Positions 13,176 to 33,111 of a stretch of DNA of 64,000 bases are shown piece by piece (the first letter of the stretch is position 1; every line of letters begins with the position of its first letter). Location: the NCBI GenBank assembly GCA_030427805.1, contig JAUICP010000004.1:414705-478704 (forward strand). Direction: 5' to 3'. The notes under the pieces were generated by a model. That model ran no database searches. It worked only from the letters and a program-made list of their open reading frames with translations, and had not been told where the DNA came from. Position numbers and translations under genes: made by a program. This stretch comes from Bdellovibrionia bacterium. GTDB taxonomy: Bacteria > Bdellovibrionota > Bdellovibrionia > Bdellovibrionales > JAGQZY01.

Positions 13176-13598
13176 ATGGATGTAACTAACGTAGGTGAAT
13201 TCAATATTCAAATGGGCTGGATATTCATGGTCTTCGGAATTTTGACCGGGTCAATTATTGGGTGTTGGTCTTTTGCCGGCCCCTTTCCAACTCCTCCGGG
13301 ACACAAAAACTACACGGATCTCCCGAGAAGAATGACTCGACTCGCACACATCGCTCTTTTTATGCTTCCTCTGATCAGCATTGTAATCGGCCATCACATC
13401 GACAACCTCCCCTTCAGTGAATCCACAAAGTGGTTTGCGGCTTACTGCTGGGTGGTTTGTATGATCGGAGTCCCAACATTTCTTTACGCGGGTGCCCTCT
13501 ACAACCCTTTAAAATACCTGGAAATCATCCCTGTCTCGGCTGGAACGATCACCCTTGCACTCATGAGTTGGGGCCATTTACAGCTCTTGATGAATTAA
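13176..13598 (+). CDS. Unknown four-helix membrane protein
   Basis: A 140-residue integral membrane protein with four hydrophobic segments (about residues 14-33, 55-75, 83-103 and 113-135). The start is well supported by AAGAGGAG with a 5-bp spacer. It has conserved-looking polar residues between helices 1 and 2 (HKNYTDLPRRMTRLAHIA) but no motif that I know. It is divergent from the phosphopantetheinyl transferase gene and 244 bp before the desaturase, so membership of the biosynthetic cluster is possible but unproven. Confidence 0.65.
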   Translation: MDVTNVGEFNIQMGWIFMVFGILTGSIIGCWSFAGPFPTPPGHKNYTDLPRRMTRLAHIALFMLPLISIVIGHHIDNLPFSESTKWFAAYCWVVCMIGVPTFLYAGALYNPLKYLEIIPVSAGTITLALMSWGHLQLLMN

Positions 13599-15961: not shown

Positions 15962-17174
15962 CAAGCTCAACTACTACTCTTCTACTCCCGTTCCTATTGA
16001 AACTCATTCATTAACTCGATTGAACTCGCAATCTCTTACGAAGCAAATCTTAAGACCTAAAACCTATGTAAAGAGTTTTATCCAAAGCCGACTCGAAAGT
16101 GCCGACATTAAGATCGGAGGGAGTCGTCCTTGGGATATCCAAGTTGAAAACGAGGACTTTTATAGCGAGGTCTTTTGGCGGCAAAGCCTCGGACTTGGTG
16201 AGTCCTATATGAAGGGCTATTGGAGTTGTCAGCAATTAGATCAATTAATATGCAAAATTTTTAGTTCTCCTATCAATAGAAGGCGAAATACTCCTGCGAA
16301 CATTGCCAGTGAAACGATCGCCCGCTTTTTTAACTTACAGTCAAAGGGTCGAGCGAAGATTGTTAATACAAAACACTATGATCTAGGCAACGAACTCTAC
16401 CGAGAAATGCTTGATGAAAACATGCTTTATACCTGTGCCTATTGGAAAAATGCGACAACGCTCGAAGAAGCTCAAATAAACAAAATGAAACTCATTTGTG
16501 AAAAGCTTGAACTACAACCCGGAATGACTTTGCTGGATATTGGCTGCGGATTTGGATCACTTATGAAATTTGCTGCTGAAAACTACGGCGTTAAATGTGT
16601 TGGCTATTCACTGTCTACCGAGCAAATCAAATTTGGTAGAGAGAGTTGCCAAAATTTGGACATAGAATTTGTTTACGATGATTATCGCAATATAAAAGGA
16701 AAATTCGATCGAGTCGTATCTGTCGGAATGCTAGAAGCAGTCGGCGCTAAAAACTTTAGAACTTATATGGAAGTCGTTTATCGATCCTTAAAAGATAATG
16801 GGCTCGCTCTCATACACAGCGTCGGTCACAACCGTACTACATTCTCTACAGACCCTTGGGTCGATCGCTATATATTTCCAAATGGCGTGCTCCCTTCGAT
16901 AAAACAAATTGGTGAATCCATTGAAAACCTTTTCGTTATGGAAGATTGGCATAATTTTGGACCTGATTACGATCGCACCCTCATGGAATGGAATCGACGG
17001 TTTCAAAAGAATTGGCCGAGGCTCTCAAGTAAACTCTCACCCGAGTTTAAAAAAATGTGGGAATTTTACTTGCTCTCATTCGCCGGTGGTTTTCGTGCAA
17101 GAAATTGGCAACTCTGGCAAGTGGTTCTCAGCAAGCAAGGTCGAAAGCAGCCTCAATGTCTTCGACAAAATTAA
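15954..17174 (+). CDS. Cyclopropane-fatty-acid-synthase-type SAM methyltransferase
   Basis: A 406-residue protein strongly resembling E. coli Cfa (382 residues). It shows the active-site region YTCAYWKNATTLEEAQ, SAM-binding LLDIGCGFGS, VVSVGMLEAVG, DRYIFPNGVLPS, MEDWHNFGPDYD, and the C-terminal FRARNWQLWQVVLS. The active-site Cys (TCAYW) and Glu (GMLEAVG) are kept; the His after that Glu in E. coli is Ala here. Family members add a methylene or a methyl group from SAM to a double bond, giving cyclopropane or methyl-branched acyl chains. Position after a desaturase fits that chemistry. It overlaps the next gene by 19 bp. Confidence 0.92.
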   Translation: MYNKLNYYSSTPVPIETHSLTRLNSQSLTKQILRPKTYVKSFIQSRLESADIKIGGSRPWDIQVENEDFYSEVFWRQSLGLGESYMKGYWSCQQLDQLICKIFSSPINRRRNTPANIASETIARFFNLQSKGRAKIVNTKHYDLGNELYREMLDENMLYTCAYWKNATTLEEAQINKMKLICEKLELQPGMTLLDIGCGFGSLMKFAAENYGVKCVGYSLSTEQIKFGRESCQNLDIEFVYDDYRNIKGKFDRVVSVGMLEAVGAKNFRTYMEVVYRSLKDNGLALIHSVGHNRTTFSTDPWVDRYIFPNGVLPSIKQIGESIENLFVMEDWHNFGPDYDRTLMEWNRRFQKNWPRLSSKLSPEFKKMWEFYLLSFAGGFRARNWQLWQVVLSKQGRKQPQCLRQN

Positions 17175-18406
17175 AAGTAGCCGTTGTTGGCGGAGGAGCC
17201 GCCGGCATAGGGGCTGCTCATAAACTCTCACAACTTGGCCACGATGTTACTATAATTGAGTCAGGAAATCGGATAGGTGGCCACGCCAATCCCGTTGTCA
17301 TCGAAAGCAATGAAGGGCCTGCGACAGTAGACACGGGCTTTCTCATTTTTAACGACTCCACATACCCTAATTTTTGTCAATTTTTGAAAGAACTAGAAGT
17401 CATTGAGGATGCACATAATCTAGAAATGTCCAGTTGCTTCCGCAACACTGACGACCAAATCGAGTACTCAATGGGACAAAAAGATAGACTGGTTCGGTTT
17501 GGACTCAAAGAGGCTTTTAATCCCCGTTTCTGGTCGATCTTTAAAGAAATGTATCGATTTCGCAAAAAGGCCCATTCAGATATCGTCAACAAGGTAGACC
17601 TCAGTAGCATCTCAATTGAGGAGTATCTGAAAGACTTCAGTAAGAGTTTTAGCGACAATTTCGTGTATCCTCTGACTTCAGCTATATGGTCTCTTCCCCC
17701 GAGTCAGATCGGCTTGTATCCGGCCCAAAGCATTTTAAATTATTTCTATAACCACCAATTACTGGCGGGCAAGAGCGACAAACGGTGGTTGAGCTTCAAA
17801 GGTTCCAGCGCCGTTTACCTTGATGCCTTCCGTTCGAAATTTTCTGGAAAAATAATCTTAAACTCATTGGTTAAACGTATTGAACGCGACTCAAAAGAGA
17901 TATCAATTTTCTTGGACAATGAAGGGGCCCCTATTCAATTCGACAAAGTCATTTTAGCGACACCAGCCGATATGAGCCTGAAACTATTGAGTGACCCAAG
18001 TCCTCTTGAAAGGGATCTATTGGCACGCTGGAGGTATAATAGCTCGACTGCAACTTTGCACACCGACACGAGTGTCCTCCACAAGGACAAAAAGTTGTGG
18101 TCCAGCTGGAATATGAATAAGTCTGGAAACCGATACTTTATAAGCTATTATTTGAATCGCGTTCACGATCTCAAATCCAATTCAGAATATGTACTCAGCC
18201 TCGGAACACCAGGAATTCGAAACGAAAAAATCATTCAGGAGTTTCAATATCGCCACCCTATTTTCGACCAAGAATCCGTGTCGAGCCAAGTTCAACTTCA
18301 GAACCTGAATAGGGGGCAAACTGCCTTCTGTGGCAGTTACTTTGGCTTTGGATTTCATGAGGATGCATTTGCATCGGGTCTCAAAGCGGCTCAGTCGATT
18401 TTATAG
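17156..18406 (+). CDS. FAD-dependent oxidoreductase (COG2907-like amine oxidase fold)
   Basis: A 416-residue flavoprotein with the dinucleotide-binding VAVVGGGAAGIGAAHKL (Gly12-Gly17), the ensuing acidic residue in TIIESGNRIGGHA, and a C-terminal FAD contact near FCGSYFGFGFHEDAFASG. The ATG at 17156 gives a start right before the FAD strand; longer starts would read far into the methyltransferase. COG2907-type proteins often sit beside Cfa-type methyltransferases, and such pairs are known in pathways for methyl-branched or furan fatty acids. The likely job is oxidation or reduction of the acyl chain made by the preceding gene. It overlaps that gene by 19 bp. Confidence 0.87.
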   Translation: MSSTKLKVAVVGGGAAGIGAAHKLSQLGHDVTIIESGNRIGGHANPVVIESNEGPATVDTGFLIFNDSTYPNFCQFLKELEVIEDAHNLEMSSCFRNTDDQIEYSMGQKDRLVRFGLKEAFNPRFWSIFKEMYRFRKKAHSDIVNKVDLSSISIEEYLKDFSKSFSDNFVYPLTSAIWSLPPSQIGLYPAQSILNYFYNHQLLAGKSDKRWLSFKGSSAVYLDAFRSKFSGKIILNSLVKRIERDSKEISIFLDNEGAPIQFDKVILATPADMSLKLLSDPSPLERDLLARWRYNSSTATLHTDTSVLHKDKKLWSSWNMNKSGNRYFISYYLNRVHDLKSNSEYVLSLGTPGIRNEKIIQEFQYRHPIFDQESVSSQVQLQNLNRGQTAFCGSYFGFGFHEDAFASGLKAAQSIL

Positions 18407-18635
18407 CTCGATTCGGGCCTCTCGAACTCAAGCCTTTATGCCCCTAAAAGCCCTTTATTTTGACTGTTCATTATAGGCTAAGGCTACTAACAAAAAGTGG
18501 CGCCCAAGGCCTCATATCTCATAGATTGGATTTCAGAAGCTCAATTCACAGCACATATATTGCAAAATGGAACCACTATCGGCACGGACAAAGAAGTCCT
18601 TGCATAAAAAGTGTAAGAAAAGAAAAGAGGTTATT

Positions 18636-19460
18636 GTGAAATTAGACTATTCGGATCCTAGAACCACTGGTCGAAAAGCTGTTAAAGATTCTGTTCCCGC
18701 GGACATTTGGACTGCCAATTCTGCTTTTGTCGACCGTCTTCAAGCCAAGTTAGCTAAACACCCAATCGTTGGTCACCCAGTAAAAGAATTTTTTGAAACT
18801 GAAACCCTAGATAAAGAAAAAACCAAGCAACTTCACCTTGAGTTTGGATATGCCTTCGCGCAAATTTTTACCGATGCAGTACTCACGGCAATGGCTAAAG
18901 CCACCGACCTTGAGAACCGTCATGGCCCAAGATCAAAGGTAACGGCTCGATTTTTATGGGCTCTTAACCTCATGGACGAAATCGGATACATGCCTGGAGA
19001 TAACAATGAGAACTACAAGGGTAACCCTTTTGCAGCTCATTATTTTCAATACGTAAAGCTTTACGAAGAGTTGGGCATGTCTGTTGACGCCATTAAGGAT
19101 TTTAAACCATCTAAGGCGGCCGTCGATTCAAGAGCGACTATGGAAGAGTACTACGGTGATTACCAAATGCTCACTACAGTTCTTGCCTACGCCGAATCAA
19201 TCTTTGATCGATTTGCTGGTGCTTGGGCGGATAATGCCTCTCGTTCAGCTGGAATTGATATCTCAGAAGGATACCATACAATTCACGTTGAAGATGAGCA
19301 CGGTGACTCAATCGATGATGATCACTCTGAAGATTCTTGGACTTTAGTTCGCCAAGCATTGGATCCAGCTCGTCACGATGAGATTGAGAAAAAAGCTGGT
19401 GAATGGCTCGATACATGGTATCGCTTTGCCGATAGTGTTATCGAAATCGCCACAAAGTAA
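18636..19460 (+). CDS. Putative heme-oxygenase-like diiron oxidase (HDO/UndA-like)
   Basis: A 274-residue, all-helical soluble protein. GTG at 18636 is chosen because AAGAGG lies 5 bases upstream (18625-18630); an in-frame ATG at 18567 would add a lysine-rich tail without a site. Possible metal ligands are the Glu in HLEFGYAFAQ, the Glu in LNLMDEIGYMPG, the His in NPFAAHYFQY and the cluster HTIHVEDEHGDSIDDDH. This looks like the helices of iron-containing redox enzymes of the TENA/PqqC/UndA fold, which cut, hydroxylate or desaturate fatty acyl or amino acid substrates. The spacing in the last helix is not textbook, so the family call is tentative. It ends 34 bp before the megasynthase. Confidence 0.5.
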   Translation: MKLDYSDPRTTGRKAVKDSVPADIWTANSAFVDRLQAKLAKHPIVGHPVKEFFETETLDKEKTKQLHLEFGYAFAQIFTDAVLTAMAKATDLENRHGPRSKVTARFLWALNLMDEIGYMPGDNNENYKGNPFAAHYFQYVKLYEELGMSVDAIKDFKPSKAAVDSRATMEEYYGDYQMLTTVLAYAESIFDRFAGAWADNASRSAGIDISEGYHTIHVEDEHGDSIDDDHSEDSWTLVRQALDPARHDEIEKKAGEWLDTWYRFADSVIEIATK

Positions 19461-19494
19461 TTAAAACTAAATTGCTCCCCTAAGAGGAATGTCC

Positions 19495-22400
19495 ATGAAC
19501 CTAACTCAGTTAGAAATAACAAAGTGGTTGCTGGCGCAAATCTCAGAAATGAGCGGTCAAAAAGAAAGCTTGATCCCAACGGATCAGGCTTTCGTTCAAT
19601 TAGGTCTGACGTCTATGGATGCAGTTCAATTGGTTGGTCGACTCAAAAAAGACTTACAAATTGAGATTTCGCCAACTCTTCTCTTTGATTATCCAACAGT
19701 CGATGAACTCGCTGAATATTTAAGCAAAACCCCAGACAGTTCACTCACCAAAAGTGAGCTAAAAAGTTCAGAGACTGCCTTATTAGAAGAAATTGGAATT
19801 TCTGGAATGGCCTGCCGTTTTCCTGGGGCACCAGATCTCAATTCTTTTCAATCTCTCCTCGAAGATGGAAAAAGTGGAATCAATCTGCAAAACCGCTTTC
19901 ATTTGTCTCAGGGCGTGCCCTCCGAAGCGGGCTATATCGAAAATTTGGATCAATTTGACCCCAGTCTTTTTGGTATTTCTTCGGCCGAGGCTGCAGCCAT
20001 GGACCCCCAGCAAAGAATTCTCCTGCAAGTCGTCGTTCAAGCCATCGATGATGCTGGATTAAAACTAGAAGATCTCAAAAACACCAATACTGGAGTCTTC
20101 GTTGGAATTTCGAGTTCTGACTACTCTATATTAATGGCAAAAGAAGGGGCGCAAAGTAGCCTTTTTGATGGAACCGGAAACGCTCACAGCATTGCGGCCA
20201 ATCGAATTTCTTACCTTTTAGGTCTTCGCGGACCCAGTTTTTCCGTGGACACGGCATGTTCTTCTTCGTTAGTCGCCGTACACCTTGCCAGAAAAAGCAT
20301 ACTCAACGGAGAGTGTGATCGCGCCATCGTTGGGGGAGTTAACCTCATGTTAATCCCCGACATTACAGAAAATTTCTTTAAAGCGAATATGCTTTCACCC
20401 GATGCTCGCTGTAAAACCTTTTCCGAAGGTGCTAATGGTTACGTTCGCGGTGAAGGAGCTGGTGCTCTCATTTTAGAGAGAGCTTCTATAATCGAAAAAT
20501 CTCACCGTAAATCCAGAGTACTTTTAAAGGGTTCAGCTATTAATCAAGATGGAAGGACCAATGGACTTACGGCTCCTTCAAGTTTAGCCCAAGAAATGGT
20601 TATTAAAGATGCTCTTAACAGTGCTCATCTCGAGGCAAAAGATATTGGATATGTCGAAGCCCATGGTACAGGGACCTCACTGGGTGATCCCATTGAATAT
20701 GATAGTCTAAACAGAACCTATGGCGCGAACCCAAAACTCTATATAGGCAGTGTGAAAACAAATATTGGGCACCTAGAAGCTGCGGCTGGTATGAGTGGTC
20801 TTATAAAGGCGGCTCTTTCGGTTCAATCTAAAAAGATATTTCCCCATCTCAACTATACAGAGATCAATAAAAACATTGCCCAGGTAAACCCTAAAATTGA
20901 AATTCCTCTACGTAAAATGGACTGGGATAATGAACTCCCACTACGGGCAGGAATTAGTTCTTTCGGCTTTGGTGGAACCAACGCCCATGTCATTCTCGAA
21001 GCCAACGAAAATGCTATCAACCTCAGCGAGAAGACATTTAACATCGAGCCCGAACCCAATTTCTACCTATTGCCGTTTTCTAGCTCTAGCGTAGAGAGCT
21101 TATTGGCCGACCTCGAAGACTTAACCAAGCTCATAGACACTAACCAAGTCAAATCCATAGGTGATCTTTCACTCAGCCTTATCAATAATCGGAGTCAGTT
21201 TAAATTCCGCTGTAGTTTAGTCGCAAAAGATCTGAATGACTTGAAAAATCAAATAACTGATCTCTTAGAAAAGCCTCGGCTTCAGAAACAAAAAATTTTC
21301 TCACTGAAAAAAGTTATTCCGCGAAAAGTCCTTGGCCTCTTCACAGGACAGGGGTCCCAAAGCCCAAAAATGGGTATGGATCTCTATCAATTCAACTCAA
21401 CCTATCGTGATTCTTTTAATCAGGTCGCAGAGATATATAGAGAATTGAGTGGAATCGATATTCACCGAGCTCTTTACATTGATGACGATAAAGCGGCGAT
21501 CTATCAAACAGATCTTGGACAAATTCTAATTCTTGCTACGGAATACGCCCTCTTCCAATTGTGGAAGGGCTTGGGAGTTCAATTGGAATTCGCCGTCGGT
21601 CATAGTCTTGGAGAGATTATTGCTCTGGCCTGCAATGGCAGTTTGAGTCTCAATTCTGCAGTAGAACTGATTCACTACCGCGGACAGGTCATGCAGAAGA
21701 GTGCTCCCGGACAAATGCTGACTCTTTTTACTGATAAGGTTTCCACTGAAAAAATAATAAAGGAACAAGGACTTCACTTAGATATTGCAGCTATTAATGG
21801 CCCCGAGTTAACTCTCGCCTCGGGACTCGAAGAAGAGGTAGCAAAGCTGAATAACTACTGTGAAAAGGAAGGTATTCGCTCTAAAGTTTTACCTGTAAAA
21901 CAAGGGTTTCACTCTTATCTCATGGAGCCGGTCCTGAGTGAATTTAAATCCCATCTTAAAGGAATCGAATATTCAAAGGGACAGTTTAAAGTTATGTCCT
22001 GTAAGGACTTAAAGTTTCACCAACAAAACCAACTCAGCCCAGAGTTTTGGGCAGGCCACCTGCGAAACGCCACGAACTTTAACGGAGCTATAGAACGACT
22101 TCCAGAAAGTGAATTTGACCTGATACTAGAAATCGGCCCTCACCCGACTTTAATAAGCATGTACAAGGAAATTCGACCTGATTCGAAAGTGACTCAGGTT
22201 TCTAGTTTGAATCGAAAAAAACCAGATATGCAGGCATTTTTAGAAAACCTCGGTTTAATGTGGTGTACGGGTTATCCAGTGCAGCTCGGTCAACTACGAA
22301 AGGCAAAGTACCACCTACAAAGACTCGCTCCTCGGCACTTTGCAACACAAAGCTTTTGGTTTAAAAAGGCCAAAGCCTCAGACCACCCGCAATTTAGGAA

Positions 22401-25400
22401 TTCCACGCCGGCTCCCCTCGATCCAAGAGCAGTACCATCTGCTGAGATTAAGATAGAAGCTAAAAAACCTCAGACCCCTGTACCGCAAAAAAGGAATGAT
22501 ATGGCTCACACAGTTGATAATGTCCTCAAAGAAATTAAAGAAATCGTAGCCGAACAGCTCGAAGTCGATGTTGAAGAGATTGATACTTCAGCTCCACTGA
22601 TGGAAATGGGCGCTGACTCCCTTGTCTTACTCAATAGTCTCGAAATTATAAAGGACGAATACGGAGTGAGTGTATCGGTATCAGATGTCCTAGGCGATCT
22701 TGGAAACCTCGATAAAATTGCAGACCATGTCGCAAAAAATACAACTCAAACGAGCTCTCCCCAAACACAGTCGGCCATTGACGATCAAAGTGCAGATACT
22801 CACACTTCAGCAGAACAAGTCTCAAATCCCCAGTCGAATCTCTCTCAAGTTCAACAAGCAATGTTTCAGGCGCAAACTCAAGTGAATCTCAGCCAAAACC
22901 TTCTGAGTGGTGGTGAAGTCTCTAACGACCTCATTCAACTTCTCAATAACCAAATGATCGTTATTCAAAATCAAATCAGCCTTCTCGCGGGCCAGTCTTA
23001 CCAGAGCCCCCAAGCGAACCAAGCCGTATCAGTAAAGTCACAAACACCTACAGCAACTAAAACCCTACAAAGCAATTCAACAGAATCCAATGAAGCATCA
23101 GGAAAAGGTGTTCTCGGTAATTTCTCTAAATCGAGTTTTAATCAGGTTGACCAGCTGGATGAGGAAAAGTCGAAATATATAGATCAATTAATAAGTGAAT
23201 TCACGGCAAAAACTAAAACGTCGAAAGATCTGGCCGAAACCTACCGAATTCCTCTTGCGGACAATCGAGTTCCCGCAGGCTTTCGCCCGCGCATTAAAGA
23301 GATGATCTATCCCATAGCTTGGAAAAAGGCCAAAGGGTCTAAGTTTTGGGATGTGGATGGGAATGAATACACAGATTACACAATGGGCTTTGGCGTAAAT
23401 CTCTTCGGCCATTCCCCCGACTTCATTAATGACAAAGTTGCAGAACAACTTTCTCAAGGTATGGCCGTGGGCCCTCAATCTCACCTCGCTGGAACCGTTG
23501 CCAAAAAAATATGTGAACTCACAAATCACGAGCGAGTTGCCTTTCTCAACTCAGGAACAGAGGCGATTATGACTGCCGTTCGCCTGGCGCGAGCAGCAAC
23601 TGGGCGACAAAAAGTTGTTCTTTTCGAAGGCTCCTACCACGGACATTATGACGGTGTTCTCGGTCGAGCGAATCGTAAAGGAAACACAGTCCCAGTGGCT
23701 CCAGGAATTTCAGAGGCCCTAGTTTCTGATTTAATTATTCTCGAATACAACAGTCCTGAGGCCCTCGACTACATTAGAAATAACGCCAATCAGCTAGCCG
23801 CTGTTCTTTGCGAATCGGTTCAAAGTCGATTTCCAGAAGTTCGCCCCCAAGAATTTCTTAAGGAAGTTCGCAATATAACTAGTCAATCGGGTACCGCTCT
23901 AATTATGGACGAAGTCATTACTGGCTTTCGCGCAGCACCCGGCGGTGCTCAAGAGCTTTTTGGTGTTCAAGCAGACCTTGCTTGCTACGGAAAAGTTCTT
24001 GGTGGTGGTCTGCCTATTGGCGCCATTGCTGGAGCTCAAAAATACCTTGATTTCATCGATGGTGGTGAGTGGCACTTTGGAGATCAATCCATGCCGGTCA
24101 ACGAAATGACCTTCTTTGCGGGAACTTTCTGCAAACATCCATTGGCCATGGCTGCCTCTCTTGCAGTTCTAAATAAACTTCAGACTGAAGGAAAAAAGAT
24201 ACTCGACGACCTCAATGAGCGCACCCAGCGCTTAGCAGAAGAACTCAATGAGTTTTTTCAAGCGCGAAAGACTGACATTGAAATCGTTTACTTTTCTTCT
24301 CTTTTTCGATTTAAATTCAAGGGCAATAAAGACTGGCTCTTTTCGAAGCTTAACTTTCTTGGCCATTACATCTGGGAAGGTCGAAACATGTTTCTCTCGA
24401 CCGCGCACTCAGAAGATGAGATTAAACAATTTGTTAACGACATAAAAGCGACAACGGATGAACTCATCAAAATTGGATATATTCCCGGAGAAATTGCTGA
24501 GGGCACCGAAATCAATACTCAGTCCTCAAGTCTGCTGCCAAAGCCGTCATTTGAAAAGATGAGTCTCGACCTTATCGAGCCGCAAACGCGCTTCTACGAC
24601 TTGGTGGGTAACGAGTCGACTGCGACAGTTGCTAATATATGTGTCGCAGTGGATCTTATGGGTCAAGTCGACAAAAAGCTTCTTGAAGCTTCAATTCAGA
24701 AGTCGATCGTTCGTCACGATATTCTTTGGGCTAATTTTGCCGACGCTAAAGCTCACTTTGGCGAAAGAGTTTCTGGTTTCGAATTAAAAACAACGGATCT
24801 AACTCAAGTGACAGCCAAAGAGAGTGCACTTAAGGAGATCTTATCTGATCTCGCTTCGACTCCCATGGGACCAGAACAGTTTCCAATCTCAATTGAACTT
24901 ATTGAGCTCGATCAGGAGCACTCTGTGCTCGCATTGTCTGCTAATCACTTAAGCTTAGATGGACTCTCACTCGCTATCTTAACGGATGAAATTGCAAAAA
25001 TTTATACAGCGGGTGGTGATCTGAAAAAGGCAAAGCTCAAAGAGGCGCTCCGATTCTCAGATTACATGAAAGATTATCCGACCCGAATCGCAAAATTAAC
25101 TGACTCAATTAAGTATTGGGATGATAAGGTGAAAACCCTATACCCTGGCACACTCGACCACAGCAAAAGCTACAAAGGCCAAAGGGTTTATACACAAATT
25201 GAAGAACCCGAATTTAAGTTGATAAAGCGATTTGGATTTAAAAACTCCAGCTCTTTACTGATGACGTTGATAGCATGCTCCAGTAAGGTCCTCGCCAAAA
25301 TGAAAGGCTTTGAAAGCCTGAGTGTTGGAGTTCCCGTTGCAGGTCATACTTCGATTACACAACCTATGCTTGGTAACTGTGTCAATTTAGTTCCGATCAA

Positions 25401-25788
25401 TGTCGAAGTGAATGCAACTACGGAGATCAAATCCATGATTCCAGATCTCAAAAAAGAGGTTTTGGAGAGCTTCAAGCATGCGGACATTCCATTTATTCGC
25501 TACGAAAAAAGCCTTGGTAAACCCCTATTCGACGTCCATATCAATGTCGAGCCCATATCAGATCTTCCGAAATTTGGAACGGTAAAAACCCAATGGCGTA
25601 GCTTCCCCGTGCAGTCCGTAGAGTGCCCGATCATTATTAATGCTCTTAAAATTGATAAAGGCTTTCGCATCGAAATGGACTATCAAGAAGATACCTTTAA
25701 TACCGATGAAGCGAAGAGCTTTATGGATCAACTCGTTGCCGAACTTAATCACCTGGTCGAAACTGAAAAGCCTGCGCAGAAACTTTAA
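19495..25788 (+). CDS. Hybrid PKS/aminotransferase/NRPS-condensation megasynthase
   Basis: A 2097-residue enzyme. Domains in order: ACP1 (1-85, GLTSMD, Ser40); ketosynthase (about 98-505, Cys255 in DTACSSS, His390 in EAHGTGT, His426 in NIGHLE); acyltransferase (about 610-900, Ser704 in GHSLGE, His806 in QGFHS, where Phe favours malonyl); ACP2 (about 1003-1078, Ser1042 in GADSLV); Gln/Ser-rich linker (about 1085-1215); class III PLP aminotransferase (about 1225-1670, Asp1472, Lys1500 in YGKVLGGG); condensation domain (about 1690-2090) with NHLSLDG, catalytic His1818 kept. There is no KR, DH, ER, A or TE domain. The order matches the front of mycosubtilin and microginin synthetases and predicts a beta-amino fatty acyl product. 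ATG 19495 has AAGAGGA at good spacing; ATG 19489 is too close. Confidence 0.95.
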   Translation: MNLTQLEITKWLLAQISEMSGQKESLIPTDQAFVQLGLTSMDAVQLVGRLKKDLQIEISPTLLFDYPTVDELAEYLSKTPDSSLTKSELKSSETALLEEIGISGMACRFPGAPDLNSFQSLLEDGKSGINLQNRFHLSQGVPSEAGYIENLDQFDPSLFGISSAEAAAMDPQQRILLQVVVQAIDDAGLKLEDLKNTNTGVFVGISSSDYSILMAKEGAQSSLFDGTGNAHSIAANRISYLLGLRGPSFSVDTACSSSLVAVHLARKSILNGECDRAIVGGVNLMLIPDITENFFKANMLSPDARCKTFSEGANGYVRGEGAGALILERASIIEKSHRKSRVLLKGSAINQDGRTNGLTAPSSLAQEMVIKDALNSAHLEAKDIGYVEAHGTGTSLGDPIEYDSLNRTYGANPKLYIGSVKTNIGHLEAAAGMSGLIKAALSVQSKKIFPHLNYTEINKNIAQVNPKIEIPLRKMDWDNELPLRAGISSFGFGGTNAHVILEANENAINLSEKTFNIEPEPNFYLLPFSSSSVESLLADLEDLTKLIDTNQVKSIGDLSLSLINNRSQFKFRCSLVAKDLNDLKNQITDLLEKPRLQKQKIFSLKKVIPRKVLGLFTGQGSQSPKMGMDLYQFNSTYRDSFNQVAEIYRELSGIDIHRALYIDDDKAAIYQTDLGQILILATEYALFQLWKGLGVQLEFAVGHSLGEIIALACNGSLSLNSAVELIHYRGQVMQKSAPGQMLTLFTDKVSTEKIIKEQGLHLDIAAINGPELTLASGLEEEVAKLNNYCEKEGIRSKVLPVKQGFHSYLMEPVLSEFKSHLKGIEYSKGQFKVMSCKDLKFHQQNQLSPEFWAGHLRNATNFNGAIERLPESEFDLILEIGPHPTLISMYKEIRPDSKVTQVSSLNRKKPDMQAFLENLGLMWCTGYPVQLGQLRKAKYHLQRLAPRHFATQSFWFKKAKASDHPQFRNSTPAPLDPRAVPSAEIKIEAKKPQTPVPQKRNDMAHTVDNVLKEIKEIVAEQLEVDVEEIDTSAPLMEMGADSLVLLNSLEIIKDEYGVSVSVSDVLGDLGNLDKIADHVAKNTTQTSSPQTQSAIDDQSADTHTSAEQVSNPQSNLSQVQQAMFQAQTQVNLSQNLLSGGEVSNDLIQLLNNQMIVIQNQISLLAGQSYQSPQANQAVSVKSQTPTATKTLQSNSTESNEASGKGVLGNFSKSSFNQVDQLDEEKSKYIDQLISEFTAKTKTSKDLAETYRIPLADNRVPAGFRPRIKEMIYPIAWKKAKGSKFWDVDGNEYTDYTMGFGVNLFGHSPDFINDKVAEQLSQGMAVGPQSHLAGTVAKKICELTNHERVAFLNSGTEAIMTAVRLARAATGRQKVVLFEGSYHGHYDGVLGRANRKGNTVPVAPGISEALVSDLIILEYNSPEALDYIRNNANQLAAVLCESVQSRFPEVRPQEFLKEVRNITSQSGTALIMDEVITGFRAAPGGAQELFGVQADLACYGKVLGGGLPIGAIAGAQKYLDFIDGGEWHFGDQSMPVNEMTFFAGTFCKHPLAMAASLAVLNKLQTEGKKILDDLNERTQRLAEELNEFFQARKTDIEIVYFSSLFRFKFKGNKDWLFSKLNFLGHYIWEGRNMFLSTAHSEDEIKQFVNDIKATTDELIKIGYIPGEIAEGTEINTQSSSLLPKPSFEKMSLDLIEPQTRFYDLVGNESTATVANICVAVDLMGQVDKKLLEASIQKSIVRHDILWANFADAKAHFGERVSGFELKTTDLTQVTAKESALKEILSDLASTPMGPEQFPISIELIELDQEHSVLALSANHLSLDGLSLAILTDEIAKIYTAGGDLKKAKLKEALRFSDYMKDYPTRIAKLTDSIKYWDDKVKTLYPGTLDHSKSYKGQRVYTQIEEPEFKLIKRFGFKNSSSLLMTLIACSSKVLAKMKGFESLSVGVPVAGHTSITQPMLGNCVNLVPINVEVNATTEIKSMIPDLKKEVLESFKHADIPFIRYEKSLGKPLFDVHINVEPISDLPKFGTVKTQWRSFPVQSVECPIIINALKIDKGFRIEMDYQEDTFNTDEAKSFMDQLVAELNHLVETEKPAQKL

Positions 25789-25880: not shown

Positions 25881-26690
25881 ATGATTCTTCGCACGGTTTT
25901 CGCAATTCTCTTTTTTTCTAGTTTTCTCACACATGCCTCGGCCAATGAAGATAGTATCGAAACTGATCATCGCTGCTCAATGAGTGCTGTTTATGAAGAG
26001 TACGGTTTTGACGAGGTTTCTTTTTCTATTGCGGCCGACAGCCTCGAAGAATGGCTTATCAATAGTTTTTACCCACAATTCAACGCCCCTTACCCTAGTG
26101 AAGTTTTTTACAGTATCCGCCCGCACTTGAAGGATACTGACAAAAACTTTATCGACACCGAAGAATTTCAGTTGGATCGGCTCAAATTTAAAAATAACCA
26201 AATATTTGAAAAGCGAGGCCGAATTACTTATGTAGGAATTGTGCAGAAGGGCTATCGATATCGCAACCAGATTGTTAACGGTGACGAGATAAAAGTTTCT
26301 GTTAAAGTCCATATCAAAAATGCCACAGCTGCAGAATTTGATCGCTTCAATAATGCCATCGAATTGGCAGAAGGTATTTGGAACAACAATAAAGTCGACT
26401 TTGGCTTCAATTATAGCTTTGATTTCGAACTCGTTTCTGCGGCCAAAGATGCATTTTTTAGTGTCAAACTTGTCGATAATTTGCGAGGCCCATATGATAC
26501 CTACTGGAATCGAAATTGGAGTGCTAAAACCATAGCTCACGAAATGGGTCATATGATGGGACTTGGTGATGAGTACCAAACGCTCACTGGTAAATCCTAT
26601 TGCCTTAATAGCTCAATGATGTGTAGTAGCTGGGGTCAGCCCCACTCTCAGCACTATTACCATGTTCTGAGAAGACTTTTTAAGAACTAA
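25881..26690 (+). CDS. Secreted zinc metalloprotease of metzincin type
   Basis: A 269-residue protein with a signal peptide (about 1-21, ending HASA). The zinc motif HEMGHMMGLGDEY (His220, Glu221, His224, Gly227, Asp230) fits HExxHxxGxxD, the metzincin pattern in which Asp replaces the third His, as in snapalysin. Downstream cysteines and SSMMCSSWGQ could supply the Met-turn. The substrate is unknown. A good ribosome-binding site (AAGGAG, 8 bp before the ATG) supports the start. It lies between the megasynthase hairpin and the convergent barrel gene; a role in the cluster (propeptide or self-protection processing) is possible but unsupported. Confidence 0.75.
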   Translation: MILRTVFAILFFSSFLTHASANEDSIETDHRCSMSAVYEEYGFDEVSFSIAADSLEEWLINSFYPQFNAPYPSEVFYSIRPHLKDTDKNFIDTEEFQLDRLKFKNNQIFEKRGRITYVGIVQKGYRYRNQIVNGDEIKVSVKVHIKNATAAEFDRFNNAIELAEGIWNNNKVDFGFNYSFDFELVSAAKDAFFSVKLVDNLRGPYDTYWNRNWSAKTIAHEMGHMMGLGDEYQTLTGKSYCLNSSMMCSSWGQPHSQHYYHVLRRLFKN

Positions 26691-26708: not shown

Positions 26709-27350
26709 CTAAAAGTCCAATTGAAAAACCGCTATGTGCTCACTCACCCTATTAGAGTCGAACTCTAATTGATTCATATAGGCAATTCTCATTGAATAAT
26801 GGGAACGCTTCACTCTGATCCCCAGCATAAACCTGTTTTTGTCGACAAAGCGAAGATCTCTATACCTACTATCTACTAGAGTGAGAAACAATTCATCCCA
26901 CACAAGAAGAGTGAGAGTGTCACTCAAAATGTAGTCATAACCAAGGGCATATCGTCCGCGAAGGGACTCATAATTGGGAGTTGAAAAAAAACGGCTTTCT
27001 ACTCGGAGTCGATGAAAGAGCTTGTGTTCTTCAGAGCTCAAGTAATCTAACTTGGACTGGGCAACGACTCGACCTTCGTTTTTATCGCCTTCTTTAGCAT
27101 ACTGAAGACCAATACCTAGAGTATGACCATCACCGATTTTTGTGGCTGCCATTGATTTTAATTTTGTCTTTGCTACTTCACTATCGTCAAAACTATAACG
27201 GACTTCGACGCCAAACTTAGCGCCCCAATCCTCCGAGAGCTTAGTACTGTAGGAGCTGCTGAGCCAAGACGAAGTTCTGTTCTCTAAAGCGAAGAGCGGA
27301 TCGATAGTTGCTAAAAAAACTAGAATAAGTACTAAATATTTTATAGCCAT
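26709..27350 (-). CDS. DUF2490-like outer-membrane beta-barrel protein
   Basis: A 213-residue protein with a signal peptide (about 1-21, ending LFALE) and alternating hydrophobic/polar strands ending in an aromatic residue (C-terminal VFQLDF), as in small outer-membrane barrels. The pattern SSWLSSSYSTKLSEDWGAKFGVEVRYS and the later FFSTPNYESLRGRYALGYDY resemble the DUF2490 group. It is the last gene of the minus-strand set that includes the RND transporter. Function unknown. Confidence 0.6.
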   Translation of the reverse strand: MAIKYLVLILVFLATIDPLFALENRTSSWLSSSYSTKLSEDWGAKFGVEVRYSFDDSEVAKTKLKSMAATKIGDGHTLGIGLQYAKEGDKNEGRVVAQSKLDYLSSEEHKLFHRLRVESRFFSTPNYESLRGRYALGYDYILSDTLTLLVWDELFLTLVDSRYRDLRFVDKNRFMLGIRVKRSHYSMRIAYMNQLEFDSNRVSEHIAVFQLDF

Positions 27351-27392: not shown

Positions 27393-28700
27393 TTAAAACT
27401 GATATCGACTTCTCAAGTACGCTGTGACCGGTTCGTAGTCTCCAAAACTGGTCGCCACGGAATCTTCTTCAGCAAAGAGGAATAGGCCAAGCTTAGTGCT
27501 CCAATTGTGCCGATGTTTCCAACGAAAATAAGGATGTACCATAAATGTTTGATCGTAAACATCAAGAGCCGTATTGAGATTGACGCTAAATACTTCCGGG
27601 TCCTGAGGATATTGTAAGGTAAGAGTTAAAAGATCTCTCAGTTGACTAAAAGTTACATCCTCAGAATTCGAACGATCTGTTTCTATAATCTGAAAGAATT
27701 GAAGGTTTGCGTAGAACTTTCCAAAAAGGCGATCCACCCCCAAAACATACTCAATCTCTGGAACCTCTAATGCACCTTCGGGATCAGATAGAAAACCGGT
27801 CGAGGTCGGAGAAATGGGATATATGCGACCGGAAACATACTTCACCTCTCCCCGAAATCCGAAACCCTCGATATTGAATGCACCATCACCACCAAATGCG
27901 TATATTCTGTTTTGATTTCTTTGGATAAGAACATTAACAGGACTTTGCGGCATCAATTGATAATAAGGCATGCGATCAAATCCAGTAAAAGCCATAACTG
28001 AAGCATCCAGGCGTTTGATCCGAAAGCTCAAACGGGCCCCAGCCTCCCAAAACGAAAGTCTTTCTGAATCATCTGGAGTATAGAGCTCGGTAAACAAACC
28101 TCCTCCTTGGAGGTTCTGCTCGATAAATTTGCCATTGGTACCCAGACAGTCTTGAGCACACCAAACCGAGTCCACACTCGGAAAGCGATGGTCCGAACTC
28201 GCCAACCAAGGTGCAGCGATCACGTCGAGTTTGATGTCACCTTTTTTGTATTCGACCTGAATCATGGGCCTGGGGATCTTTCGATCTTCTTTATCGTCGA
28301 AAAGAAAGAATTTATAATCTTCGGCATTCCAAACATCGAGAGGATTGAGCTGGTCAGCCTTACCCCAGATAACGATCTTGGAACCAATAAAAAACTTAAG
28401 ACCTTGAATGGGAATAAAATTAACACCAACATCTCTGGCTGTTAAAAAGAAGTCCTCTTCATTAAAATAGGTATCGAGTCGTAAATGGAGGCGAAGGTCG
28501 CTACTTTCAGAAAGAGATAAACCGAAATCGTCCTTCTTCTCCATAAATTTCTGTCGAAGCTTAATTTCACCACGACCACCGATCCAGTCCGCAAATTCAC
28601 CCTGCCCGCTGAGGACTGGCTCAATACTCGCTTCAAACTCAGCCCCGAAGGACTGAGTCGCTGTTGATAAAACAATGAAGGCAGCTAGGAGAAATTTCAT
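27393..28700 (-). CDS. Outer-membrane barrel protein, DUF1302-like
   Basis: A 435-residue protein with a signal peptide (about 1-19, ending SFGAE), many short amphipathic strands and an aromatic C-terminus (YLRSRYQF). Proteins of this type often accompany an RND/MMPL transporter and a LolA-like protein, as here. It may form the outer-membrane part of a lipid or sterol transport route. Start codon and size are reasonable. No sequence motif gives a substrate. Confidence 0.65.
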   Translation of the reverse strand: MKFLLAAFIVLSTATQSFGAEFEASIEPVLSGQGEFADWIGGRGEIKLRQKFMEKKDDFGLSLSESSDLRLHLRLDTYFNEEDFFLTARDVGVNFIPIQGLKFFIGSKIVIWGKADQLNPLDVWNAEDYKFFLFDDKEDRKIPRPMIQVEYKKGDIKLDVIAAPWLASSDHRFPSVDSVWCAQDCLGTNGKFIEQNLQGGGLFTELYTPDDSERLSFWEAGARLSFRIKRLDASVMAFTGFDRMPYYQLMPQSPVNVLIQRNQNRIYAFGGDGAFNIEGFGFRGEVKYVSGRIYPISPTSTGFLSDPEGALEVPEIEYVLGVDRLFGKFYANLQFFQIIETDRSNSEDVTFSQLRDLLTLTLQYPQDPEVFSVNLNTALDVYDQTFMVHPYFRWKHRHNWSTKLGLFLFAEEDSVATSFGDYEPVTAYLRSRYQF

Positions 28701-28750: not shown

Positions 28751-29551
28751 CTACATTTCAGCAGTTAACTTTTCAAAAGAAAATAACTCCTGAGAGACAC
28801 CAGAATTATACTTTACTTTCTGTAATTTTAAACTGGTCTTTTTCTTTCTAACAAGGTCTGCCATTTCGGAGGCTTGAATGGTCCAAATACCATTCACCTT
28901 TGCGAGGTCTTTAACCCTAAATTCTTTAATTTTCTTTTTACCTTTGAACATTTCAACTTTTAGAGCGACATAGGAGGTTGGATCTACCCAAGAAATAGTT
29001 TTTGAGTATATTTCGTCTTTCGACTTAGCAATCGACTCTACTACGAGCACCGACTTTTTACCCAGTTTCTTTTTGCCAAGAAATTTGTGTTTGTAACTAT
29101 CCAGAGGCCGATCTTCGAAGTCGGTATAGTAGAAGTCAGACCCAACAAAAGAGTTACCCTTATTATTCGTAGAAATCTTTCTAGGCTCTTTTTTCGCCGC
29201 TCGACTCAAATATAACCACATTTGATCATCTGACTTTTTATTCGAATGAAGTAAAAGTCCGGTGTTTTTCATGGTATTTGGCCCTTTAAATTTAATAAGT
29301 ACTTTTGACTCAGGCCCCTGTTCTTTTCTAAACAAAACAAACTCCCTGGTCTCAGGACGCCCTCGCACCATCAGATCCATAGTCATAAGACTCTGACTGT
29401 CTTTACCGGTGTCTCGGTCCTGTACCCGCTTCATTATCTGGCGGCCACTGGCTTGCTTATTTATTGCGCCTGCAAGGGACGTAAACTGGGACTCCGCAGC
29501 GGCAGAGCCAATAAACATGAGTGCGAACGTGAAAGAAAAAAGTGATTTCAT
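28751..29551 (-). CDS. LolA-like outer-membrane lipoprotein-sorting protein
   Basis: A 266-residue periplasmic protein with a signal peptide (about 1-19, ending SAAAE). Motifs such as LMTMDLMVRGRPETREFVLFRK, MWLYLSRAAKKEPRKIS and FVGSDFYYTDFEDRPLDSY (all shortened here from longer stretches) match the LolA-like proteins found beside RND transporters. They are thought to carry lipids or lipoproteins between membranes. It lies 3 bp downstream of the transporter gene, and precedes the DUF1302-like barrel, so all three are probably one transcript. Confidence 0.85.
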   Translation of the reverse strand: MKSLFSFTFALMFIGSAAAESQFTSLAGAINKQASGRQIMKRVQDRDTGKDSQSLMTMDLMVRGRPETREFVLFRKEQGPESKVLIKFKGPNTMKNTGLLLHSNKKSDDQMWLYLSRAAKKEPRKISTNNKGNSFVGSDFYYTDFEDRPLDSYKHKFLGKKKLGKKSVLVVESIAKSKDEIYSKTISWVDPTSYVALKVEMFKGKKKIKEFRVKDLAKVNGIWTIQASEMADLVRKKKTSLKLQKVKYNSGVSQELFSFEKLTAEM

Positions 29552-29554
29552 TGA

Positions 29555-31909
29555 TTATATCTCCTTCTTAATAGATTTATCGAGGTAGGGGGCTATCAGC
29601 AATAGAATTGCCGGGATCGCCAGAAGTGTCGTCACAGTCGCCACGCTAATGGCCATCACATTGAGAAGGCCAAAGCTTCGAATAGGACTAAACACAGAAA
29701 ACTGTAGCACCGAATAGCCGAGAACGAGTGCTATAGTCGTAAATAGTATGGCCTTACCAGTTGATTTAAATGTCAACTCAATGGCCTTTTTAACGTCACG
29801 GTGCTTTTGTTGGTATTTCTTGAAAGACAATAAAAAGTGCAAAGAATCATCAATACCAATACCAATCGACATGGCCGAAACCAGGCTAGTGGCAATATCG
29901 AGTTGAATTCCCAAAAGTCCCATAGCTGCAAAGATCACTAAGATCGAAACGACAATTGGAGTCAGGGCTACAAAACAAAGAACCGCCGAGCGAAGAACCG
30001 GAAAGGCAATTAAAAATACAACGAGCAAGGCAAGAAAAATAGATTGAATTTGCCCTTCGACGACTTCTGATAAGGTTGTACTCCACAGAGGAATATCTCC
30101 GTAGAAGTAAACTTTGGAGTTCTCGCCAATGTCCTTTTTAAGTTGCTGAATTTCATCGGTAATAATTTTTTCGTAATGCTGAATAGGTTTCTCCCGAAAA
30201 CTTCCATCTGGCAACTCTTCAAGCTGAAACCGGCCCAGTAGTCTTACGAATCGAAAGTCTTGGTCGGTGACATACCGTAAATCTTGCTGCAAATTTCCAG
30301 ACCAGGAGTAAACATCGAGATACTGGAGAATTTCTACATCATCTTCGGGAATTCGATAATACTTTTTACTTCCATTGTAAGCCTCTCCCATCATCTTTAC
30401 GTAATCACCGAGACTTGTGGAAATGACGAGCTCAGGGATTCGCTTTTTGAGTCGATCACTTAAATTTTGAAGAGCGAGTAGAACCGTAGCTTTCGCTCCA
30501 GCGTCCCTTTCCTTAGCATCGACAACAACATTAAAGTCAAGAACCCCACCAAAGCTTTTAGAGATGGATCGAGCATCCGTAACAACTTGAGAGTCCGGGC
30601 TAAAATATCCAAGAATCCTGTAGTCTGTCGTGATGTCTTTAATAAAAACCGGTGTTAATGCAACGACAAGAACAAAGAGTAACAATATTCCAATGGGTCT
30701 TCTTTGAACGGCAGAGTTATTAACCTCTAAGAATTTATTAATAACTCCATCTACCTTTGAAAAGGACTTAACTTTATGTGCCTCTGCTGGAGTCCGCTCA
30801 ATGGACCCCTCAGTTTTTATCTTGTGAAAAATTCGCAAAAACGCAGGAATCATCACAAAGGCCGAAATTGCAGCTGCAATGACGCCAAAGGCGGTAATCA
30901 CCCCAAACTCGCTAATCGTTTTTACTGGACTTGCAAGGTTCGACAAAAAACCCGCCATGGTTGTCAATGCCGTGAGTAAAATTGTCGGTGCAATATGGTG
31001 GGATGTTTTAGAAATAAGAGACTCTTTGGATTCACCCGGATAATTATTTTTTTCAATATAAAACTGTGTGAGGTAGTGGATTCCATAGGAAGTACCAACG
31101 GCAATCAAAATTATGGGAATAGCATTTGATACGATATTCAGGTTAGCTCCGAGCAAGGGCATGGCCCCAACGGCTACTAATATTGAAAATATAATGGAGA
31201 GAATCGGAAATACAATTCCTTCAAGGCTCTTAAAACTGACCAAAAGAATCAAACCTATCACTAGAAAGACCAAAGGGATCAGTACCTCTAGATCTCTATC
31301 CATCATGTTCTTGAAAGTCGCGTTGATCATCGCGTATCCACTAACGGACCAGGACTCATCCGATTCTATCTTTTCAAGGGCAGTATCTACCCTTTGCTTC
31401 ATTTGCTCCTCATTGAGCTCTTTAGAAAACTCAATGACCAAATTGAGTGAATCCTCATCGAGACCGATCAAATTACCGCTATAGATATCTTTCTCGAGGA
31501 GCTTCTTTTTAAGTTCTGCAATTTCATCTTCCGTCTTTGGAACCTCTGCCGCCAAATCACTGACATCAAAACCAGCCCCTGTATTTTTGAGAAACTTTTC
31601 AGAATAGATGCTTGTTACTTTAACAAGATCTTCATCCTCCCCAAGGAGATCCACAAAGGCTTTAATTTTTCCCAGAGACTCTTGATTGAAGGCATTTGTC
31701 ACGCGTATTAAAACTAACTTTGAGTTTCCAAAGATTGACTCCATTTTTAAATTCTGGAGACGCACTGGACTATGAGGATCAACCAACTGACTCACGTCAG
31801 CTGCTTGCTGAACAAAGAGAGTATTTGTGGCAAAGAATAGACCTAAGAACAAAAAACTAAGCAATACGAGTTTCGGTCTTTTAATGGGGAGCTCAAAAAG
31901 ATATTTCAC
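29555..31909 (-). CDS. RND/MMPL-family exporter
   Basis: A 784-residue inner-membrane transporter with the two-half layout of the family. There is one N-terminal helix (about 13-31), a first large periplasmic loop, a helix cluster (about 205-370), a further helix near 410, a second periplasmic loop, and a last cluster (about 620-775). Conserved pieces include GTSYGIHYLTQF and SIGIGIDDSLHFLLSF, the RND helix-4 and helix-10 type segments. Family members export lipids, hopanoids or drugs using the proton gradient. It starts with GTG in a GTGA overlap with the upstream paraoxonase-like gene, so translation is coupled. Confidence 0.88.
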   Translation of the reverse strand: MKYLFELPIKRPKLVLLSFLFLGLFFATNTLFVQQAADVSQLVDPHSPVRLQNLKMESIFGNSKLVLIRVTNAFNQESLGKIKAFVDLLGEDEDLVKVTSIYSEKFLKNTGAGFDVSDLAAEVPKTEDEIAELKKKLLEKDIYSGNLIGLDEDSLNLVIEFSKELNEEQMKQRVDTALEKIESDESWSVSGYAMINATFKNMMDRDLEVLIPLVFLVIGLILLVSFKSLEGIVFPILSIIFSILVAVGAMPLLGANLNIVSNAIPIILIAVGTSYGIHYLTQFYIEKNNYPGESKESLISKTSHHIAPTILLTALTTMAGFLSNLASPVKTISEFGVITAFGVIAAAISAFVMIPAFLRIFHKIKTEGSIERTPAEAHKVKSFSKVDGVINKFLEVNNSAVQRRPIGILLLFVLVVALTPVFIKDITTDYRILGYFSPDSQVVTDARSISKSFGGVLDFNVVVDAKERDAGAKATVLLALQNLSDRLKKRIPELVISTSLGDYVKMMGEAYNGSKKYYRIPEDDVEILQYLDVYSWSGNLQQDLRYVTDQDFRFVRLLGRFQLEELPDGSFREKPIQHYEKIITDEIQQLKKDIGENSKVYFYGDIPLWSTTLSEVVEGQIQSIFLALLVVFLIAFPVLRSAVLCFVALTPIVVSILVIFAAMGLLGIQLDIATSLVSAMSIGIGIDDSLHFLLSFKKYQQKHRDVKKAIELTFKSTGKAILFTTIALVLGYSVLQFSVFSPIRSFGLLNVMAISVATVTTLLAIPAILLLIAPYLDKSIKKEI

Positions 31910-32961
31910 TCAGGCTCCCCTTCATCTTTTGTGGAACACTTTAAGATTCCATCGTTATAGATTGAACCCATGTAAAAATGATCGCCATAGAATAAACCAA
32001 CACTAATGGCCGAAAGAGGCTTTCCTTCATTAGAATAAAAAACCTTTGACTCATAATTATTGTGAATATTGATTTCTAATACTTGGGAAGGTGAATTTTT
32101 CTTGGCGTCTTTGCTATGTAACAAAAGATTGAGTACTTTTGGGTGTGTTCCCGCGTACAACTTGCCTCGGTCGGAGTCCCAATTAATATTGTCTGGACCA
32201 AAACCAATAAAGTTTTTCTCGATTCCTATGAGGCTCATACTGTTAACTTCAATCGTTGCCGATAAAATACTACGCTCAAGCATAAGGGCGACTAGGATCT
32301 GGTCACCCACGATTTCGATACCATTGGGAAAAGCATAGTGACCATTGAGTTTTTTAAACTTTTTCCCATCGTAGGCCATTAGGTAGCCCCTGCCAAAACG
32401 AGAGAGATCTTCGAAAAGTTTGCCCAGGTGACTTTGATAACCATGATCAATCGAAACAAAAAAACGGTCCCCATCGAGTGCGCCGATATCATTGGCATTA
32501 AAGAGGTCTGGATGGGAAAGTGATTTAACAAGGTTCAATTTTTCGTCCACAAAATCAAAGATCTCAATAAAGTCCCCTTGATTGGAGTGATTGACCACAA
32601 AAAGGCGAATTGTTTTATCATCAATTCGAAATACTTCGATTCCGTGGGGTTTAAAACTTCGGGGTAAATCCACTTCTAGTTTTACAGTCTCTTGTTTTTC
32701 TGACTCAAGATTCTTATAAAAAAGAGCTCCACTTTGATTAGGATCTTTAAAGAGGGGCTGATGCCAATTACTCGAAATAAAGAGGTATGGTCCCATTTTT
32801 TCGATGTCTTCTGCTCCTTGAAGCCCCGTCTCAAGCTCACAATTTTCGAGGCTCACTTTTTCGAGGCTCGAAAACAAACCGGCATCGATGACGAGCTTTA
32901 GAAAATGACCGAAAACAGCGACAAAAATAATAAACAAAATGAGGATTTTAGATCTTTTCAT
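31906..32961 (-). CDS. Paraoxonase/arylesterase-like beta-propeller hydrolase
   Basis: A 351-residue protein with an N-terminal membrane anchor or signal (about 4-25) and propeller motifs like those of serum paraoxonase: LPRSFKPHGIEVF, FVVNHS, NANDIGAL, YAFPNGIEI and FGPDNINWD. In PON enzymes the corresponding Asn, Asp and Glu residues bind calcium, and the enzymes hydrolyse lactones and aryl esters. The ATG at 32961 is preferred to an in-frame TTG at 33003. The end overlaps the RND start. It could act on a lactone or ester in the periplasm, perhaps one that the exporter carries; that link is inference. Confidence 0.75.
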   Translation of the reverse strand: MKRSKILILFIIFVAVFGHFLKLVIDAGLFSSLEKVSLENCELETGLQGAEDIEKMGPYLFISSNWHQPLFKDPNQSGALFYKNLESEKQETVKLEVDLPRSFKPHGIEVFRIDDKTIRLFVVNHSNQGDFIEIFDFVDEKLNLVKSLSHPDLFNANDIGALDGDRFFVSIDHGYQSHLGKLFEDLSRFGRGYLMAYDGKKFKKLNGHYAFPNGIEIVGDQILVALMLERSILSATIEVNSMSLIGIEKNFIGFGPDNINWDSDRGKLYAGTHPKVLNLLLHSKDAKKNSPSQVLEINIHNNYESKVFYSNEGKPLSAISVGLFYGDHFYMGSIYNDGILKCSTKDEGEPE

Positions 32962-33111
32962 CGAGGACCAATTCTGCTCCAAAAACACTTTTAGAGCCAA
33001 CAAGATGGTTAAACAATTAGCCTCAAAGAGTTCAAGAAGAGTGCCATTTTAATCATTCCAGCATTGGAGTGTAGCCACATAAATCACTGTAAATACATAG
33101 GTTTTTCACAC

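Follow-up and report, generated by a model that had tools for sequence, protein, structure and literature searches.

How does an assembly line let go of its product when its last domain is a condensation (C) domain with no acceptor module behind it? The question is raised by a gene on the plus strand (19489..25788) of a 64,000-nucleotide stretch, hereafter the window, of contig JAUICP010000004.1 (positions 414,705 to 478,704; assembly GCA_030427805.1). The host is a Bdellovibrionia bacterium, an uncultured relative of predatory Bdellovibrio, whose genome of 4.5 Mb lies on 11 contigs and is 98.9% complete. The gene encodes a megasynthase of 2099 aa, a hybrid of polyketide synthase (PKS) and nonribosomal peptide synthetase (NRPS) domains. 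From comparison with its homologues, its terminal C domain would probably act as a release domain that moves a β-aminoacyl chain onto a soluble nucleophile, presumably an amine, to give an exported β-amino-lipid amide.

According to the open reading frame and its Pfam matches, the megasynthase follows the order acyl carrier protein (ACP), ketosynthase (KS), acyltransferase (AT), ACP, class III aminotransferase (AMT) and C, all on the plus strand. These include ACP1 (19525..19722; PP-binding profile), the likely recipient of a fatty acyl starter; the KS (19786..20856; Pfam, catalytic residues checked); the AT (21337..22251; Pfam), whose GFH/AFH-type motif suggests that it loads malonyl; ACP2 (22531..22731; PP-binding profile), the predicted donor carrier for AMT and C; the GSA-aminomutase-like AMT (23311..24468), with the lysine for pyridoxal phosphate in YGKVLGG; and the terminal C domain (24571..25761, residues 1695-2091), recognised by Pfam, an AlphaFold model and Foldseek. 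No ketoreductase, dehydratase, enoylreductase, adenylation (A), thioesterase (TE) or reductase domain is present in the 2099 residues, and the protein stops after C. The active sites are intact, both here and in six homologues (Cys-His-His of the KS, GHSLGE of the AT, both ACP serines and the AMT lysine).

The C domain itself is full length, since its match to Pfam Condensation PF00668 (E 1.6e-35; 123.2 bits for a cut-off of 30.6) spans profile positions 7-435 of 456. Its active-site motif reads NHLSLDG (24943..24963, residues 1819-1825) in place of the canonical HHxxxDG, with the second His, the Asp and the Gly kept, so that the sequence-only reading of this locus was right about both the completeness of the domain and the retention of the second His. 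The weight which that reading gave to the altered first His did not hold up. Across seven terminal C domains, the window's included, the first position gives HH in five, QH in one and NH in one, while all 18 C domains aligned share the second His, D and G. The first His was therefore discarded as the functional key, and its change appears to be a local lineage variant with little bearing on function. The AlphaFold model of the domain (pLDDT 88.8, pTM 0.88) adopts the V-shaped, CAT-like fold and is matched by Foldseek to solved C domains with a best E of 1.3e-28 and TM scores of 0.69-0.85 among the top 50. Both the sequence and the fold matches in the Protein Data Bank (PDB) are NRPS C domains, including amide-forming free-standing ones; VibH and SgcC5 are among the PDB matches.

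From the perspective of the acceptor, what matters is what the C domain could be paired with. Downstream, as the sequence-only reading had stated, there is no A domain, peptidyl carrier protein (PCP), TE or reductase: the next gene encodes a metalloprotease-like protein, and a convergent operon of export-type genes follows. An orphan A-PCP elsewhere in the genome, which that reading had named as the finding that would count against it, was sought with the PF00668, PF00501 and PF00550 profiles, and none was found. The genome has a single C domain. Of its three PP-binding domains, two belong to the megasynthase and one to an 83-residue AcpP-like frame, and none of its eleven AMP-binding matches adjoins a carrier. 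An orphan A-PCP is thus very unlikely. Searches of six homologue genomes with PF00668 and PF00550 gave exactly one C domain in each and no orphan A-PCP, whose action in trans was rejected for these genomes as well. G000, G095 and G362 encode no PP-binding protein beyond the megasynthase, with its two ACPs, and an AcpP-like ACP; every further match in the remaining four terminal-C genomes is a stand-alone ACP of 77-132 aa. The idea of an acceptor supplied in trans therefore survives in part. A free acceptor is the best reading, because the C domain lacks a partner in cis and the searches brought up no amino acid on a carrier in trans, whereas a carrier-bound amino acid, which had also been proposed, is unlikely given the lack of an orphan A-PCP and the loss, in all seven homologues, of the segment described below. 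A search of the surroundings for a shared acceptor-making gene gave nothing: by Pfam, none was seen among 20 variable flanking proteins, whose families include TonB receptor, PLD, FtsX/ABC, MatE, PALP and 2-hydroxyacid dehydrogenase, and no gene among them is common between clusters.

A search of 369 genomes of the phylum places this ending among related genes. Close homologues of the C domain, with 22-33% identity to that of the window, occur in six other genera (G119, G206, G217, G212, G095 and G362), all within frames of 1996-2063 residues and all at the end of an ACP-KS-AT-ACP-AMT-C protein; a heme-oxygenase-like diiron oxidase (HDO), a small membrane protein, a type II thioesterase and an acyl ligase are encoded nearby. 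The C-terminal end is intact and no carrier follows C in any of the seven (7/7). A truncated or broken gene was ruled out, as the protein ends at the same place in six other genera, and chance is excluded, since the architecture recurs there and the catalytic residues are intact in all seven. A contig scan that took the whole megasynthase as query yielded only one near-identical relative, L017, a contig from a metagenome-assembled genome; it is 94% identical over residues 1-992, and the contig stops inside the megasynthase. In the tree, all seven terminal C domains group together as a clade (support 100/99) on a long stem. A literature search found no Bdellovibrio cluster of this kind and no terminal C domain acting on a β-amino chain.

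The telling feature of these seven domains lies on the acceptor side. Motif C7 (RDxSR) is deleted in all of them according to the alignments, which gives a stronger signal than the first His. In the window protein, the region without the canonical C7 segment (..L.RDxSR.PL) lies at 25492..25539 on the plus strand, where YEKSLGKPLFDVHINV is continuous, and the terminal C domains read, for example, EKSLGKPLFDV at this place. The structural sense of the motif is provided by FscG, in which R2906 contacts the phosphate on the phosphopantetheine arm of the acceptor PCP, while A2907 and V2908 touch the carrier protein itself (PMC8097023). These three residues were located in the PDB chain within PPRAVSRHPLF, which corresponds to motif C7. 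The C7 Arg is present in 11 of 12 AMT-fed C1 domains and in three of four C2 domains of the same phylum, and it is also kept in three rhizobial AMT-C-A modules, BamA, a Paenibacillus C domain, TycC6, Txo2, DhbF and BacC. The window domain thus departs from canonical elongation C domains (LCL/DCL) in two respects, the lack of C7 and the lack of a downstream A-PCP in cis or in trans. The residue encoded at 25621..25623 (plus strand) is a Glu in all seven terminal C domains and in none of the other C domains aligned; it possibly belongs to the acceptor pocket and faces the acceptor. For the pocket residues of glidonin synthetase (S9963, D9965 and E9984), the comparison covered only their approximate region.

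A commoner and different system of the phylum was observed alongside (L050, L051, L052 and L025, from G228, G180, G205 and G076, respectively). Its first protein is A-PCP-KS-AT-ACP-AMT and its second C-PCP-C-A-PCP-TE, the latter opening with a C-PCP pair that has no A domain.

Several known systems share parts of this arrangement. McyE, ItuA and MycA are synthases with AMT-C-A-PCP hybrid modules. Such modules, found in BamA, in the iturin/mycosubtilin and microcystin (McyE) systems and in rhizobial plasmid clusters, have the same order of KS, ACP, class III AMT and C and a β-aminoacyl-ACP donor, and this order is found in all seven homologues, the window protein included. They differ from it in that an A domain and a carrier follow C and that C7 is present in the C domains sampled, whereas the window protein ends at C and C7 is deleted. 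Its AMT shares 53% identity with the BamA AMT, and the best plasmid matches of its C domain, at 27%, are rhizobial KS-AT-ACP-AMT-C-A proteins. Judged by its domains, the window module corresponds to an iturin/microcystin-type AMT-C module without the A-PCP expected of the MycA/McyE kind. Sinorhizobium, Rhizobium and Ensifer were also seen to carry unannotated hybrid clusters of the KS-AT-ACP-AMT-C-A type on large or symbiotic plasmids (L062, L063 and L064).

With regard to the acceptor, VibH and SgcC5 join a carrier-bound acyl donor to a soluble small molecule. HamF likewise moves a fatty acyl group from a carrier onto a free amine (PMC11659414). The combination of a carrier-bound donor with a soluble acceptor is what is proposed for the window domain, from which these three differ in being free-standing, distant in sequence and supplied with different donors. 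In glidonin synthetase, the C13 domain of GdnB, likewise placed at the end of its assembly line, attaches free putrescine to the chain (PMC10587159); a partial A domain, a T domain and TEs follow it and its donor is peptidyl, whereas nothing follows the window domain, whose donor would be a β-aminoacyl polyketide. OaaC, which uses free amines, belongs to the fatty acid amide C domains (C_FAA) with the motif (D/H)HxxxDS, where the second His is more than 99% conserved and the first position is D or H (PMC13142362). The likeness here extends to an acyl-ACP donor, a free amine acceptor (only proposed for the window), a first His that is often replaced and a nearly invariant second His (PMC13142362). 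OaaC is free-standing, works with a separate ACP, usually has DS or DA and takes a plain fatty acyl-ACP donor, whereas the window domain is fused to ACP-KS-AT-ACP-AMT and keeps DG, as do all seven terminal C domains; by the features compared, it falls outside C_FAA. Release by a C domain onto a small amine, which the sequence-only reading had called uncommon, is indeed so, but clear precedents exist (PMC10587159, PMC13142362, PMC11659414).

While the domain order, the intact active sites, the missing carrier-bound acceptor and the lost C7 segment can be read directly from the sequence, we infer the transfer to a free acceptor, the chemical class of that acceptor, the step of the HDO and the export. 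The acyl ligase would load a fatty acid on ACP1, and KS and AT would add one malonyl-derived C2 unit, carried on ACP2. The AMT would then convert the β-keto group into a β-amine, and the C domain would take the resulting β-aminoacyl-ACP2 as donor and pass the acyl group to a soluble nucleophile that is not carrier-bound. A primary amine is the most likely class of acceptor, in which case the product would leave as a β-amino-fatty amide, probably to be exported by the MMPL/LolA-type proteins, as suggested by their position and family.

Some points weigh against this free-acceptor release. The seven homologues are related and do not amount to seven independent cases. The absence of further carriers comes from hidden Markov model searches of assemblies that are 76-99% complete. 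Finally, a clear C7 Arg is also missing from two C domains that do face a carrier, both of them from G076, so that loss of C7 is not fully diagnostic.

Other fates of the chain can be grouped into four types. The C domain may esterify or amidate a membrane lipid or polyol, such as a phospholipid head group, in the manner of PapA-type acyltransferases. Lipid-type export genes adjoin the cluster, ester-forming C domains are known (PMC11546977) and the loss of C7 fits any acceptor that is not carrier-bound; but the structural matches named above are NRPS C domains, amide-forming ones among them, and the domain has no membrane anchor, which makes this explanation unlikely. Less probable still is cyclisation or hydrolysis of the β-aminoacyl thioester by the C domain with no outside acceptor, so that the chain would end up as the free β-amino fatty acid or, by attack of its own β-amine, as a β-lactam or a dimer. 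Fungal CT domains do so with a blocked acceptor side (PMC11546977), the donor here would bring its own amine and C7 is lost. Yet the cluster already has a type II thioesterase for hydrolysis, the four-membered ring is strained and the conserved Glu would suit an external acceptor. A carrier-bound acceptor, with AcpP, a stand-alone ACP or ACP1 bearing the amine and with C as an ordinary elongation domain in trans, is improbable to a greater degree: extra stand-alone ACPs do exist in some homologue genomes, but three terminal-C genomes have no such carrier, the segment for docking the acceptor PCP is deleted in all seven domains and no AMP-binding match in the genome adjoins a PCP. Least credible is that the C domain, dead or of structural use, is left over from an A-PCP module since lost, with release by the type II thioesterase, for although the first His is changed in the window and a thioesterase is present in each of the clusters, invariance of the second His, D and G over seven genera at such low identity is not expected of a remnant, and the C-domain model is confident.

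A second gene of note is that of the HDO homologue (18567..19460, plus strand), which ends 28 bp upstream of the megasynthase. The HDO is found in eight of the 369 genomes, namely the seven terminal-C genomes and a congener (G001). There, the gene is only about 3 kb away from the end of its contig, and the search gave no C domain. Within the phylum, it is the strict genomic partner of the terminal-C megasynthase. Its model (pLDDT 80.3) has the helical heme-oxygenase-like fold, with CADD (E 9e-5) and BesC (E 2e-4) as best PDB folds by Foldseek, while its sequence gives nothing better than E 0.17 against the PDB and its match to Pfam Haem_oxygenas_2 is under the gathering cut-off. Several Glu, Asp and His residues are invariant among the homologues and may include diiron ligands. 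In predicted fold, it resembles the diiron oxidases CADD, BesC, RohS, PolF, HrmI and UndA, from which it differs as a distinct family tied to the terminal-C megasynthase in the phylum. The enzyme may make the acceptor or change the product. Family homologues at 34-35% identity also occur in plasmid and chromosome records of Acinetobacter; the one inspected, from A. indicus (L061:8986-9843), is a solo gene adjoining a TetR-type regulator, outside any biosynthetic cluster.

The sequence-only reading mentioned neither the upstream ligase, thioesterase, phosphopantetheinyl transferase and HDO nor the conservation of the cluster. Upstream, a divergent minus-strand group identified by Pfam encodes an AMP-forming fatty acyl ligase (9748..11598), which would likely load ACP1, a stand-alone type II thioesterase (11713..12420), which probably clears blocked carriers, and a 4'-phosphopantetheinyl transferase (12402..13106). 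The plus strand then runs from a 140-aa membrane protein (13176..13598) through two fatty-acid-desaturase-type proteins, a CFA synthase and an FAD amine-oxidase-type enzyme (together 13843..18406; Pfam) to the HDO and the megasynthase. The membrane protein is conserved in all clusters, with about 50-60% identity and an invariant RLAHIA among other motifs, and has no Pfam family above the cut-off. The desaturase-type, CFA synthase and FAD genes are kept in L017 and were not found in the other clusters. As called, the FAD frame (17057-18406) overlaps the CFA synthase by about 118 nt, and its true start probably lies further in.

Directly after the megasynthase comes a secreted metalloprotease-like protein with HEMGHMMGLGDEY (25881..26690, plus strand), for which no homologue was found in the other clusters. 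The convergent minus-strand operon that follows encodes a DUF2490 protein (26709..27350), a 435-aa protein (27393..28700), a LolA-like protein (28751..29551) and an MMPL/RND-type transporter (29555..31909), the last directly following the gene for an arylesterase/beta-propeller-like protein (31906..33003, minus strand). The arylesterase-like gene adjoins the megasynthase in five other genera, and a homologue of the transporter holds the same place in G212 and G217. In these two genomes, the HDO, megasynthase, arylesterase-like and MMPL genes are neighbours on a single strand, which links the window's export group to the same pathway; the MMPL operon, with its LolA-like, 435-aa and DUF2490 proteins, likely serves outer-membrane export. 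Further along, 41215-46404 encodes a protein of 1729 aa, probably a secreted lipoprotein, which combines repeated domains with a beta-helix region.

A bolder and rather doubtful extension is that the C7 deletion defines a class of release C domains peculiar to this phylum. These would join β-aminoacyl-ACP to a free acceptor that the obligate HDO partner either makes or alters afterwards, and would so give rise to a new class of exported β-amino lipids in Bdellovibrionota. Taken further still, the idea becomes one of self-acceptance, with the β-amine closing a β-lactam or forming an oligomer. If release onto a free acceptor is true, the lineage would have a conserved, specific ending of a PKS/NRPS hybrid line without a TE, a reductase or an acceptor module, and the loss of C7 would be a sequence mark that might tell free-acceptor release C domains from ordinary ones in genome mining. 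The locus would also point to exported β-amino lipids of an unstudied class in relatives of Bdellovibrio and to a new HDO family, and the presence of the same gene set in several related genera makes this a new, testable lipid pathway.

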